From a virus: a DNA stretch of 24,345 bases. Below the pieces are notes generated by a model. The model made no database searches. It saw only the letters and a list, made by a program, of their open reading frames with translations, and was not told the DNA's origin. Within the stretch, counting starts at the first letter, position 1, and each line of letters starts with the position of its first letter. Below, in pieces: positions 18,789 through 23,982 of the stretch. A program made the position numbers and the translations under genes. The stretch spans positions 1 through 24,345 of IMG/VR virus record IMGVR_UViG_3300017990_000056; one strand, given 5' to 3'.

Positions 18789-19147
18789 GCTTCAGTCTCG
18801 CAGGCAACAAGATACAGATCGAGCAGGGCTCGACGTTCTCGCTCACGCTGAACTGGACCGACTCAGAAGGCGCGATCATGCCGCTCGCCTCCGAGAGCTG
18901 GACGGCACGCATGAAGGGCCGAGAGGACAAGGAGTCGTCCACCGAGGTCTTCAGCTGGACGAGCGGTGCCGAGCTGATCCTCGCCGATACGAATCCGAAC
19001 ATACGCATCGAAGTCGAGGCGACCGCGACCGCGGCATATTCGGCTCCGCTTCTCGGTTGGTATGACTTGGAGCTCGTCGACGCCACGAGCAACGTCTACA
19101 AGATCATCAGCGGCGTCCTTCAGATCGACCGGGAGGTCACTCGGTGA
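18785..19147 (+). CDS. Baseplate/fibre-base protein, BppU N-domain-like
   Basis: A 120-residue protein, ATG 18785 overlapping the previous stop. It reads ISL-free start MSFSLAGNKIQIEQGSTFSL, then TLNWTDSEG and a core of strands ending GVLQIDREVTR. The pattern 'I-x-Q-G-x-T-x-x-L-x-x-x-x-x-D-x-x-G' followed by 'W-x-A-R-M-K' resembles the single beta-sandwich of baseplate upper proteins and related phage fibre adaptors. Coupled by GTGA to the following fibre gene, it probably attaches fibres. In-frame codons before 18785 are shadow. Confidence 0.6.
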   Translation: MSFSLAGNKIQIEQGSTFSLTLNWTDSEGAIMPLASESWTARMKGREDKESSTEVFSWTSGAELILADTNPNIRIEVEATATAAYSAPLLGWYDLELVDATSNVYKIISGVLQIDREVTR

Positions 19148-19800
19148 GCTACGCAATCTCTCTCAGCGGTACGACTGTCACGATCGCCTCGCCTGGTCCG
19201 CGAGGCGTCGGCGTGCCTGACGGTGGTACGACTGGACAGACGCTTCAGAAGTCAAGCGGGACTGATTACGACTTTGCCTGGGCTAACCCCGCAGACACGA
19301 CGATCCCGAGTCTCTCGTCGCCCGCCTTTCTGTTTGCGGACAACACCGGCTACGTCGAAGACTCTACTGTCGCATTCATTCGCACCGAGCCGCTGAACGC
19401 GGTCTATCCAATGGAAACGCCGATATCTTTCGGTGGCTCTGGATCCGGAACCGATTACAGCGACAAAGTCCTCGATGGTGTAATCGGGGCCAAGTTCTAT
19501 CTTCCGCAATACCAAGATCTTTTCCCAGGGAATACGGTCGAAGTTACTGGGTCGGTAAATCTGGTCGATATGACCGGAAATTATTCGCCGCTCGGCCCAC
19601 TTACAAACGTTTCCGTAGCATTCAACAACGGTACCTGCATCGAAACGCTGAGCTCGCCGCATAGAGATGCGGACTCAGGATACGGTCTCGACACTATTCG
19701 GTATAACTTTCTTCGGGTCATGCGAAGTCACGAGGCTCAGGCTTGTAGCGCGGCCATCGATGCAATCGCAACCAACGGCATCGACGGAGGAACCTTCTAA
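19144..19800 (+). CDS. Tail fibre protein, N-terminal collagen-like start
   Basis: A 218-residue protein starting at GTG 19144 (GTGA overlap). After a beta-strand opening it has SPGPRGVGVPDGGTTGQTLQ then KSSGTDYDFAWANP, the widespread fibre motif 'G-G-T-T-G-Q-x-L-x-K-x-S-x-T-D-Y-D-x-x-W'. The rest is beta-rich, with GSGSGTDYSDKVLDGVIG and a C-terminal helix. No enzymatic motif seen. It precedes the large fibre gene and may be a separate fibre or shaft piece. Its stop shares the last base with the next start. Confidence 0.72.
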   Translation: MSYAISLSGTTVTIASPGPRGVGVPDGGTTGQTLQKSSGTDYDFAWANPADTTIPSLSSPAFLFADNTGYVEDSTVAFIRTEPLNAVYPMETPISFGGSGSGTDYSDKVLDGVIGAKFYLPQYQDLFPGNTVEVTGSVNLVDMTGNYSPLGPLTNVSVAFNNGTCIETLSSPHRDADSGYGLDTIRYNFLRVMRSHEAQACSAAIDAIATNGIDGGTF

Positions 19801-22037
19801 TGGCGTATATCAAGTCATGGCCGATTTGGTCTGAGCGAACCGGGCAGTCCGCTCTTGCTGGAGCGACCGATCCGTACGACGACGCTTTGCGAATCTTGAA
19901 CTACGGCCCGGTCGCTGGAAATGACTCCTCGATCCAGAACTTCCCGCTTTCGTCGGGCACTGGCGGGCAGGTCTATCCGGTAGCGATCAACCCTCTCCGA
20001 ACAAGGGCGGCCGGTATGGATTTCTCGCCGTTCGGCTTTCTTCCGAGAAGGCTGAACAATGCCATCAATTCATCGGCAGACGGTCTTGGTGGTACGACCA
20101 TCGATCCGTATCACGTGCCATACGCTACAGCATTGGCCGACCAAGCACTCGACATCAACTGCTTCAACCACGGGTATCGTTCTTGGGTTCGAATCGGTTG
20201 GAACCTTCTGGTTTCGTATTTCCATTTTGATTCAGGAGGTATCGATCAGGCTGCGTGGCTAGCTTTGCCCGGGCAGAACGCTTCTCAGAGAGACACCTGG
20301 TTCGCTTGCAAGGACGGCGTCGTTCGGAATTATCCAGTGCAGTTCGACACGGACTTCATGGATGACATCGAGTCTGAGGCCGGTGGTATTGGTACTTGGT
20401 GGTCAAGAACGAGCGGCCCTGGCAGCTATGATTTCGCATTTGCGAGATTCTCAGGATCAATCCCAAGCGAGGACGAAGTAGCGATTGCACGGCCTCTTCA
20501 GGGGAAGGTCTTCGATAGCTTTTCGCGTGGTCAATTTGAACAAGGCTGGGCGATCGACAGTCAAGGCCGAGTTCTTGCGGCGACCAATAGCAACACAATC
20601 ATCAATGCCGCAACTCGAGACATCAATTCACATAACTGGGGATGGTATCTAGATCCCGTCGCTATTTGGGATGGAGATTCTGGTACACCCCTGTTCATGC
20701 ACACGCATGAGGGTACCGTATGGGTTTGCAACCTTAGCAGTGTTTCCGCTTCAAATTTCAACGGGCTCGATGACGATCGAATTGAGATTATCAACACGGT
20801 CATCAACCTCCCTGCGCACGTAGCCAATCACACCGATGGAGACGGGAACGTCCGAACGATCACGCCGTATTGCGGCGAGGTGCCATCGACGCCGACCAAG
20901 AGTTCGGCATCCGGGACGATCCAGCTGAAGCGAAGCGGCACGCCGTCGAGCACGCCAAGCTCTCTTGCCGAGGGCGAGCTTGCGATCAACTACGCAGACG
21001 GAAAGCTTTTCTACGCTGATGGATCTGGTTCCGTTCAGGAGTTTGTCGCTGGAGTCGAAAGCGTCAATACCGAGACCGGTGCGGTGACGCTGACTGGCGA
21101 AGACATCGACACGACGCCGACGAGCGGTAGCACGATCACCAGCACGCTCACATCTCTTACGGCGAGCACTATCGCAAACACTCAGAGCATCGCCAATCTC
21201 GATTACACCGACATCGAGGACGCCGTCGGCAGCGGATCGGCGGATCACTCGGGCGGCACTGTCGCGGCCGGATCGATCACAGACGTGATCGCACTGACCA
21301 ACACCGAATACACCAACCTCACCGGCGGCGCAGATCCGAACACGCTCTACGTCATCACCGACGCCGCGACGAGCATCGCAGATCCTGACGACGTTACGAT
21401 CACCTCTGCTGCGACGAATGACTTCCTTGTCTTTGATGCGAGCGGAGACTGGGTCGACAAGACGCCTGCACAGGTTCGGGCGATTCTCGATCTAGAAGTG
21501 GGAACCGATGTCCAAGCCTACGACGCGGAGCTTGCCGCGATCGCCGGGTTGACTTCGGCCGCTGGCAAGGCAATCGAGTTCACCGGATCTGGAACGGCGG
21601 CGACCTTCGACATCACAACCGCCGGCAAGGCGCTACTCGATGATGCCGATGCAGCTGCTCAGCGAACGACGCTTGGCCTCGGGACGCTGGCGACCGCTTC
21701 GACCATCACCGACTCCTACGTCGGTCACATCGAAGCACCGGAAGACACGACCTACTACATCGATCCAAAGGTTGCGGAAGCTCGGGAGATCACCGGCGTC
21801 TACTTCGCCTGGACAGCCGGAGCGTCGCCAGACGGCGACATCGATGTTCAGATCGGCGGGACGTCGGTGCTCAGTTCGCTCGGTCGTATGAACTCTGGAT
21901 CAAGCTTTACCGGTACGCTCAAGACCGACGGCACCGAAGACGTTGCGGCTGATGCCGTCATCACCGTCGTGCTCGGTGCGACGAACGGCGTCGCCGACGT
22001 GACTGACCTTCGGTTCTCAGTGGAGTACGCACAATGA
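19800..22037 (+). CDS. Tail fibre with trypsin-like serine protease domain
   Basis: A 745-residue protein, ATG 19800 overlapping the previous TAA. Residues about 110-345 resemble a chymotrypsin-fold protease: strand NLLVSYFHF with His142, SYDFAFARFSGSIPSEDEVA with Asp211 in the 'D-x-A-x-x-R-x' loop, and WDGDSGTPLFM with Ser294 in GDSG. Residues 371-412 (GTIQLKRSGTPSST, LAEGELAINYADGKLFY) form an Mtd-like intertwined segment. From 415 to 660 are fibre repeats, including GTDVQAYDAELAAIAGLTSA and LLDDADAAAQRTTLGLG. The last 85 residues are a beta head. Catalytic assignment of His142 is the weakest point. Confidence 0.65.
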   Translation: MAYIKSWPIWSERTGQSALAGATDPYDDALRILNYGPVAGNDSSIQNFPLSSGTGGQVYPVAINPLRTRAAGMDFSPFGFLPRRLNNAINSSADGLGGTTIDPYHVPYATALADQALDINCFNHGYRSWVRIGWNLLVSYFHFDSGGIDQAAWLALPGQNASQRDTWFACKDGVVRNYPVQFDTDFMDDIESEAGGIGTWWSRTSGPGSYDFAFARFSGSIPSEDEVAIARPLQGKVFDSFSRGQFEQGWAIDSQGRVLAATNSNTIINAATRDINSHNWGWYLDPVAIWDGDSGTPLFMHTHEGTVWVCNLSSVSASNFNGLDDDRIEIINTVINLPAHVANHTDGDGNVRTITPYCGEVPSTPTKSSASGTIQLKRSGTPSSTPSSLAEGELAINYADGKLFYADGSGSVQEFVAGVESVNTETGAVTLTGEDIDTTPTSGSTITSTLTSLTASTIANTQSIANLDYTDIEDAVGSGSADHSGGTVAAGSITDVIALTNTEYTNLTGGADPNTLYVITDAATSIADPDDVTITSAATNDFLVFDASGDWVDKTPAQVRAILDLEVGTDVQAYDAELAAIAGLTSAAGKAIEFTGSGTAATFDITTAGKALLDDADAAAQRTTLGLGTLATASTITDSYVGHIEAPEDTTYYIDPKVAEAREITGVYFAWTAGASPDGDIDVQIGGTSVLSSLGRMNSGSSFTGTLKTDGTEDVAADAVITVVLGATNGVADVTDLRFSVEYAQ

Positions 22038-22447
22038 GTCCGCGATGGTTGTATTGGCCGGATGTTGTATCGTTGGCTGATTTCACCGCTTCTGGAACAA
22101 CGGATGTGGCAGATGGAACAGGTGGATCAAGAGACAACGATCCAACGACGAATCCATCGGAAGCAGACCTTTCATTTATCACGTTCCGAGGGACCGACAA
22201 CGCAAGCCCTCGGATGTTCTTTGTTTTTAGTGTGCCGGCTTCTCGCGATACATTTGTATCGAACTATCCTGACGGATCATCGCTTGCTTTGGTTTTGGGT
22301 GGATCGACCTATACAGCATCCTCCATAAGCTGGAACAGCTTTGATAGCGGAGGAAGTGGATATTGTCTCCTTTCTTCAGCTCAGTTTGATTCTTGGCCTG
22401 CAAATGTGCCGTCTGGAACCTCGTATACATTCGAGATCTTCGTATGA
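22034..22447 (+). CDS. Small virion/adhesin protein, unrecognised
   Basis: A 137-residue protein, ATG 22034 as ATGA overlap. It is beta-rich with Gly/Ser/Thr/Asn turns, for example 'L-x-F-I-T-F-R-G-T-D-N' and GGSTYTASSISWNSFDSGGS. No enzyme motif or membrane segment. Codons become noticeably AT-richer here than in the upstream fibre gene, consistent with exchange at the adhesin locus. Family not recognised. Coupled to the following tailspike. Confidence 0.65.
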   Translation: MSPRWLYWPDVVSLADFTASGTTDVADGTGGSRDNDPTTNPSEADLSFITFRGTDNASPRMFFVFSVPASRDTFVSNYPDGSSLALVLGGSTYTASSISWNSFDSGGSGYCLLSSAQFDSWPANVPSGTSYTFEIFV

Positions 22448-23982
22448 AAGTTATGATCGGCTCAAGCGTTGCCTCTGTAAAATATGGTGCATCTGACACA
22501 ACAATTCAAAAGGGCGAACCGTCAGAAAGTATTGGCGCGAACTCTTTGAGAATTGCGATCGTCGACGGGCAGGTCGTGGAAGATTCTTCGATTGTCGTCG
22601 ATGTTGTTGCGTTCACATACGACCCGTCGGCAAGTATGATCACGCCAATCGTCAACGGTGTGACAACATCGCAAACAACCTTGCAGTGGCCGTCCGTCGG
22701 TGGGAATTCAGTTTCGGTATTCCGCGCAACTGTTCCACTTTCTATCGGAACAAACGAAATCACGGCTGTTTCGGGTGAGTCTGTCGACTCAATTGTTGTA
22801 TATCGAAAGAATTCCCTTAGCACAATCGGCGTTTCAAATGCAAATGATGCGAAGCAAGCGATACAAGACGCCTTTGACGGAACAAGCAATCACGATATTA
22901 TTGAGATCAACTATACGGAGCCAGATTTTGGTTTCAATGTTCTCGACAATATCGGATCAGGACTATCCGCATCTCGTGAGGGCTTCTTGACGGTCAAGCC
23001 AGGAACTGGATCAATCGGTTTCAACACCGACGGTGCTGTTGGCACAAATGATAGATTTATTCCAAAGCTTCCAAGCGGATGCGATTTGCATATCTATGAT
23101 GCCCAGATAGGATCAACTTCGTCAAATACGGCTGTTGGATATTACGATCTGACCAATCATGCAGGACGGCTGTGGTTTGATAATTGCTCAATTTCAGGAA
23201 AATACAACGTCACAGATTATACCGAATCCGATCAGTTCGATCCTCAATACTCGACGCAATGGCCGAGATCAATCACTGGCGACAATCCAGTGTCCTTTAC
23301 TGAATGCGAATGGTATGGCGTGCCTTTCAAGCAGTGTGGAGTGCAACTAGAGCTAGTGCGCGATTGTGTTTTTCGTCAGATTCGCGGTGATGTGAACGAC
23401 CTTGGCAAGCTTGTTGTCAACATATACTGCGAAGATCTAAAGGGAATTACATATCCTGGCGGCGCAGATGTTACGCATCAGGATTTGTTTCAGATATGGG
23501 GACAGTCAACAGGATGGCAGCCAAACGGTTCGATCTTTTACGGATGCAAGGTTGGTCAAAATCTGATTGCTGAGTTTGATGGGCAACCGATCTTTTTCAG
23601 CCGAACATATAATCCATCATATTCTGGAATTGTCGTAGATTCGGTTTTTGTCGATCAACCAGCAGACACACCTAGGCAAACTCAATTTGCTGGTGTTTGT
23701 AGGAATAGCCGGATTTCAAATGTCTCGCATCCGACAAAGCCAGTGACTTTTCGGATGTATGCGACTGGAACAGATACAGCGTTCGAACCTGATTCAACCG
23801 TTTTTTTCGACAACATTGATTCTCAATACGTTGCCAAAGTTCTTTCTACTGGCAATGTCGCCATAAAAATTACCGATGTATCTGATCCAAACGATATCTC
23901 TCCAGAGCTAAATGCAGATACAGATTTGCAGGGTGCTACTGGAGAAACTCCCTCGTTTAGCTCTTGGAAGATCAACGAGTGA
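22444..23982 (+). CDS. Beta-helix tailspike-like protein
   Basis: A 512-residue protein, start ATG 22444 (ATGA overlap); in-frame codons from 22393 lie in the previous gene. Residues 1-130 hold an Ig-like beta domain (IVVDVVAFTYDPSASMITPI). From about 135, AKQAIQDAFDGTSNHDIIEI opens a stretch of short repeated strands with Asn/Gly turns, such as LWFDNCSISGKYNV, VSFTECEWYGVPFKQCGVQL and THQDLFQIWGQ, the pattern of right-handed parallel beta-helices used by phage tailspikes to bind or cut surface polysaccharide. Catalytic residues cannot be assigned. Codon use is clearly AT-richer than in the core genome, a sign of transfer. Confidence 0.65.
   Translation: MKVMIGSSVASVKYGASDTTIQKGEPSESIGANSLRIAIVDGQVVEDSSIVVDVVAFTYDPSASMITPIVNGVTTSQTTLQWPSVGGNSVSVFRATVPLSIGTNEITAVSGESVDSIVVYRKNSLSTIGVSNANDAKQAIQDAFDGTSNHDIIEINYTEPDFGFNVLDNIGSGLSASREGFLTVKPGTGSIGFNTDGAVGTNDRFIPKLPSGCDLHIYDAQIGSTSSNTAVGYYDLTNHAGRLWFDNCSISGKYNVTDYTESDQFDPQYSTQWPRSITGDNPVSFTECEWYGVPFKQCGVQLELVRDCVFRQIRGDVNDLGKLVVNIYCEDLKGITYPGGADVTHQDLFQIWGQSTGWQPNGSIFYGCKVGQNLIAEFDGQPIFFSRTYNPSYSGIVVDSVFVDQPADTPRQTQFAGVCRNSRISNVSHPTKPVTFRMYATGTDTAFEPDSTVFFDNIDSQYVAKVLSTGNVAIKITDVSDPNDISPELNADTDLQGATGETPSFSSWKINE

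Follow-up and report, generated by a model that had tools for sequence, protein, structure and literature searches.

Most known enzymes of phage fibres cut sugar or peptidoglycan. A phage peptidase that strips a polypeptide shielding the host was described for Bacillus phage PhiNIT1 in the form of a poly-gamma-glutamate hydrolase (PMC5380687). It was also reported that two Rhizobiaceae phages carry a trypsin-like serine protease, with no gene position given (PMC10783043). Within the literature surveyed, which comprised mostly titles and the opening lines of abstracts together with portions of PMC10783043, PMC5380687 and PMC8310070, no trypsin-like domain in a tail fibre was found. The phage fibre and the S1-type protease are each of a known kind, and the fusion of both is without an earlier report found.

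The window analysed is the whole of a virus record of 24,345 bases (IMGVR_UViG_3300017990_000056), and the features of interest are collected in Table 1. The gene for the 745-aa protein is an open frame without an internal stop, whose ATG lies 9 nt 3′ of a GGAGG (19786-19790) and overlaps the stop of the preceding 218-aa gene as TAATG. The product of the latter has no tblastn match in the sister loci described below, no Pfam family and only a weak PHROG match. The initial annotation had placed this frame, as well as His142, Asp211 and Ser294 within it, all of which proved to be as stated, with a good start besides. Elsewhere in the window lie a gene with a weak tape-measure match (3033), genes for RecT (10777) and a replication initiator (12578), and one that is exonuclease-like (17330). 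In addition, a 529-aa open frame lies 3′ of the fibre gene in the variable locus (22393-23982), has no Pfam family and no convincing PHROG match, and possibly encodes a second adsorption protein.

Table 1. The predicted protease-fibre gene and its surroundings, in positions of the window
Feature	Position	Strand	Basis
Whole gene, protease-fibre fusion, 745 aa	19800..22037	+	Open frame, Shine-Dalgarno GGAGG, TAATG overlap
218-aa gene, coupled to that of the fibre and belonging to one insert with it	19144..19800	+	Absent from sister
Predicted chymotrypsin-like protease domain, residues ~59-340, borders approximate	19974..20819	+	VIA-align range of S1 chains; alignment with A8 relatives
His142, proposed catalytic His, VSYFH context (SYFHF)	20223..20225	+	Relatives' His in 17/17 rows; strand just before it in model 1
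Asp211, proposed catalytic Asp, GSYDFAFARF	20430..20432	+	Relatives' Asp in 18/18 rows; strand after it in model 1
Ser294, proposed nucleophile in GDSGTP	20679..20681	+	18/18 rows; motif partly the selection criterion
Adaptor segment of the fibre (residues 374-409), corresponding to the sister's N-terminal Mtd_N	20919..21026	+	phrog_19966; alignment to sister N-terminus
Fibre C-terminal part, residues 525-745, common to sister	21372..22034	+	65% identity to G001; tail-fibre PHROG
Hypervariable adsorption locus versus sister; only ~21510-22060 conserved inside	18865..23977	.	blastn blocks versus L073/L074

Read by itself, the stretch of residues ~59-340 looks like a divergent chymotrypsin-like (PA-clan) serine protease. 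The triad order His-Asp-Ser and the canonical contexts are found in the 745-aa protein, and a GDSG-type oxyanion stretch is present (IWDGDSGTPLF, residues 289-299); the counterparts in trypsin are VLTAAHC around the His and DIALLKL around the Asp. The specificity position, which we take to be six residues before the Ser, is by counting Ala288, so that an Arg/Lys specificity as in trypsin is unlikely and was rejected. No Pfam family was matched by the 745-aa protein at E up to 10 or by residues 56-345 at E up to 1, no NCBIfam family was found for the protease half, and phmmer against PDB sequences returned no S1 chain for it, the single row being a chance-level match to another enzyme. The HMM search against trypsin-family profiles that the initial annotation had put forward as a check thus came out negative for the domain itself; as the PF00089 (Trypsin) profile is unmatched, the domain is called trypsin-like here and is not filed under that family. 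At the sensitivities used, tblastn found no direct relatives of the protease domain in the phage, plasmid, viral-contig and genome-contig collections, and relaxation of the phage search to E up to 10 gave only three rows, at chance level.

Because direct relatives did not emerge from tblastn, the first relatives were drawn from motif patterns, such as a WDGDSG[ST]P DNA pattern, and the Ser motif is therefore partly circular as evidence. Three pattern searches yielded 27 distinct loci, 12 of which (L002, L003, L005-L007, L032, L034, L035, L037, L042, L050 and L051) were judged trypsin-like by eye, the other 15 being dropped. The WDGDSG[ST]P pattern led to proteins of 565-602 aa with a C-terminal trypsin-like domain, and other patterns led to RCC1 fusions and further trypsin-like proteins. 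A DGDSGTPhF pattern gave ten stretches in genome contigs, four in open frames longer than 150 aa, which were read, and six in shorter ones, none of which was judged trypsin-like. An alignment of the 565-602 aa proteins recovered 22 loci; all 15 of those read carry GDSG, and most loci of this set (15 of 22 read) show the arrangement 'TPRHxIGAAHY...PDLTIYTLDSDLP...GDSGNPAF'. One relative was found in a named phage record, MW202510, where it is annotated as 'hypothetical protein' and lies amid virion genes.

Profiles built from these proteins point to the S1 fold. A profile of 12 relatives, from which the 745-aa protein was excluded (A3), matches PDB S1 proteases over the whole fold (best E 4.1e-4), and 59 of the 60 PDB chains listed for a 19-row profile comprising the 745-aa protein and others (A8) are S1 chains. 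Pfam Trypsin was matched by four of the 19 A8 members, at best with E 5e-4, while L018 matched it at E 0.0055, under the curated cut-off. Ten proteins encoded next to relatives were scanned; eight gave virion or packaging matches, another matched a family without assigned function, and the last had no match. A tail protein adjoins L018; a head-tail adaptor, a terminase and a sheath protein lie near L034; L051 has a major head protein nearby, L042 has two terminase-like proteins, and the L030 gene has a virion structural protein. These surroundings support, without proving, the assignment of the trypsin-like class to virions.

In the environmental phage contig L002, two unlike serine proteases lie side by side: a 1614-aa protein with a subtilase domain (L002:2767-7608 (-), PF00082, E 1.2e-23) adjoins the trypsin-like one (L002:7608-9302 (-)). 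An RCC1 propeller is fused to the trypsin-like domain in L034:2418-5210 and L035:5236-7905, the former gene being located between the head-tail adaptor and terminase/sheath genes. Free-standing trypsin-like proteins (L015, L016, L017, L020-L022, L024 and L027) bear C-terminal SAETSAETSAE-type tails, the length of which varies among near-identical copies. Residues 10-114 of L018 have 42% identity to a small protein (BAQ94259) of phage record AP013544 that adjoins a head-to-tail joining gene, and the N-terminus of L018 is perhaps a shared virion-docking domain ahead of the protease.

With regard to the tie between the protease domain and these relatives, MAFFT placed His142, Asp211 and Ser294 in the relatives' triad columns in 17/17, 18/18 and 18/18 covering rows, respectively, which are not independent, since ten are near relatives of one another and the Ser motif was partly a selection criterion. 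Early alignments misplaced His142 or Asp211; only wider sets placed both, and under some settings they did not. With the GDSG stretch fixed and the remainder shuffled 100 times, the His fell in place 21 times, the Asp 47 times and the two together 10 times, so that this co-alignment is weak when taken alone. A profile of 11 relatives scores the domain at 16.0 bits unmasked and at 0.4 bits with the GDSG stretch masked, the latter value being equalled by 11 of 500 masked shuffles. The Ser region alone was aligned by hhalign against A3, and residues 248-302 alone against A4 (11.7% probability), with no whole-domain alignment. Similar stretches beyond GDSG occur in the RCC1-type relatives, for instance WYLDGQDRVYS against WAIDSQGRVL in the 745-aa protein. 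Taken as a whole, the sequence support beyond GDSG appears modest to moderate.

Structure models of the domain were poor. The alignments supplied to AlphaFold2, which contained trypsin-like rows in both cases, gave a pLDDT of 44.6 and a pTM of 0.51 for residues 1-365 (model 1, 11 rows) and of 44.4 and 0.45 for residues 56-345 (model 2, 19 rows), and the trimmed domain with 18 relatives gave no better model. Model 1 contains a strand before the His, a strand after the Asp, strands after the Ser and a C-terminal helix. In a Foldseek search of the PDB, all 50 of its best 50 rows belong to the PA clan, Deg8 being the top match with E 0.014 and none falling below 0.001. VIA-align likewise listed S1 or HtrA proteins in 50 of 50 rows, mostly over residues ~58-341, with Z of 5.2-5.8, a range that is common according to the tool. 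For model 2, the S1 fold occurs in 37 of the 50 PDB rows listed, at E 0.08 or worse. The matches include non-catalytic S1 relatives, namely the HGF/MSP beta-chain for model 1 and haptoglobin and heparin-binding protein for model 2. A BFVD search with model 1 returned no convincing viral trypsin.

Residues 374-745 are ordinary fibre, with matches to phrog_19966 (long tail fibre distal subunit; residues 374-409, E 9.9e-6) and phrog_24210 (tail fibre; residues 552-632, E 5.8e-12). The whole 745-aa protein matched 172 phage records in tblastn, and the best 20 of the 172 are short matches, either to residues 373-436, from T4-type long fibres and a single Vibrio phage, or to residues 553-610, from Rhizobium and Manatee Spring phages. 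The initial description of the second half as a phage fibre is therefore borne out; the repeats ascribed to it occur only as fibre-family motifs, Tandem Repeats Finder having reported no arrays within 19800-22037.

When the RecT gene was used as bait, five related contigs were obtained, one of which, a sister phage of 31,969 bases (G001), has the same fibre end; the other four gave no fibre match, perhaps owing to fragment ends. Nucleotide identity between the sister and the window is mostly 74-80% (68-86% across all blocks), and the exonuclease-like protein is 89% identical. The sister locus holds a 250-aa open frame, itself matching tail-fibre families, which begins with the tail-attachment domain Mtd_N (Major tropism determinant N-terminal domain; E 1.4e-16) and ends in the counterpart of residues 525-745 (65% identity). 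Residues 374-409 align with the Mtd_N segment of the sister, and none of 1000 shuffles aligned as well; the Mtd_N profile (PF18454) itself is unmatched by residues 366-745 at E up to 0.01 and by the whole protein at E up to 10. Neither the protease nor the 218-aa gene has a counterpart at the sister locus by tblastn, the N-terminal half has one weak match elsewhere in the sister (E 0.046, residues 7-60 only), and G[DN]SGxP is absent from all six frames of the sister. Identity to the sister ends at 18864 and returns at 23978, save for ~21510-22060. The insert has its two flanks matched by one and the same sister, which makes an assembly chimaera unlikely. The protease thus lies upstream of the normal fibre start of this lineage and, as the sister has the same fibre C-terminus and no protease, forms an extra N-terminal part, inside an adsorption locus that is hypervariable. 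The earlier proposal of a trypsin-like domain in a tail fibre is accordingly supported in part, by distant relatives, fold-library matches of model 1 and a protease-less sister, with models of pLDDT ~44.

We favour, at a probability of roughly 0.5, a siphovirus-type tail fibre with an N-terminal chymotrypsin-like protease that is predicted to cleave host surface protein at adsorption. The fibre gene would have gained a divergent PA-clan protease domain of ~280 residues, in frame and upstream of the usual tail-attachment segment, and the domain would be held near the tail-proximal end of the fibre. During adsorption, it might act on a surface layer, pili, a protein coat or a secreted matrix, as a counterpart for protein of the sugar-degrading tailspike depolymerases. 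The domain very probably folds as a double barrel and is probably active, and the odds are about even that it remains virion-bound with host protein as its target.

The protease might instead release itself by a cut in the linker (about residues 345-373); the remaining fibre would then begin where that of the sister does, and the freed enzyme may act in assembly or be shed in soluble form. Such a course would fit the location of the protease directly upstream of the segment where the sister fibre begins, as well as the Thr/Ser/Pro-rich linker that separates the two; however, the sister has this C-terminal fibre and no protease, so that maturation does not need one, and no cleavage site is identifiable from the sequence, which leaves self-release unlikely. 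That two sisters alike in their fibre end differ in the presence of the domain speaks in particular against an obligatory role in fibre maturation, so the initial suggestion that the protease processes the fibre itself has become less likely in that form.

Two other accounts concern the domain rather than its target. Fibres commonly acquire binding domains, haptoglobin and the HGF beta-chain are non-catalytic S1 relatives in animals, and such proteins (HGF/MSP beta-chain, haptoglobin and heparin-binding protein) are among the best structural rows; the fold could hence serve without catalysis, giving the fibre an additional module for binding or spacing. We consider this improbable, since His, Asp, Ser and GDSG are kept in the 745-aa protein and in all covering rows of the 18 relatives, whereas drifted binding modules usually lose the triad and the oxyanion stretch. 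That GDSGTP, the His and the Asp coincide by chance in an unrelated N-terminal fibre domain would agree with the lack of a direct profile match, the low model confidence and the 10% of shuffles in which His and Asp co-align together, but it is hard to reconcile with the uniformly PA-clan Foldseek and VIA-align rows listed for model 1, with the fitting strands around the triad and C-terminal helix, and with the stretches shared with RCC1-type relatives beyond GDSG; we judge it very unlikely.

If active, a fibre-fused S1-type protease would extend the enzymes of fibres to host surface protein, and its presence and absence in sisters at the same locus provide a with/without pair for testing the effect of the enzyme on host range. 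Judging from the relatives, there may be a broader class of such proteases in environmental phages, so far unannotated and missed by present profile libraries. More tentatively, and at somewhat less than even odds, tailed phages of different build, i.e., a siphovirus-type fibre (the 745-aa protein), a podovirus virion cluster (MW202510) and sheath-bearing phages with RCC1 propellers, may carry dispersed, uncatalogued chymotrypsin-like proteases that form exchangeable modules in their virion proteins and would act as 'protein depolymerases' at adsorption and be gained or lost between sisters.

Among known systems, the PhiNIT1 poly-gamma-glutamate hydrolase, which is not known to be S1-type, is the nearest functional parallel found, being alike in principle. 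The S1-type proteases (PA clan, PF00089) agree with the domain in how His, Asp and Ser are ordered and flanked, in GDSG, in the predicted strand order and in the C-terminal helix, and the profile of the relatives matches S1 chains; the domain differs in having no direct Pfam match, in its fusion to a phage fibre and in Ala288 six residues before the Ser. In the case of Mtd_N-headed fibres (PF18454), the sister begins with Mtd_N and has its C-terminal part in common with the 745-aa fibre, whereas the adaptor of the latter has diverged and is preceded by the protease domain. The closest-looking relatives by eye are the RCC1-trypsin-like proteins (L034, L035 and L032) that environmental phages with a sheath encode, which align with the 745-aa protein at DFS...PR, W.iD.Q.rV and GDSGTP.F; unlike it, they are joined to an RCC1 propeller, and their genes lie between the head-tail adaptor and terminase/sheath genes and not on a fibre.
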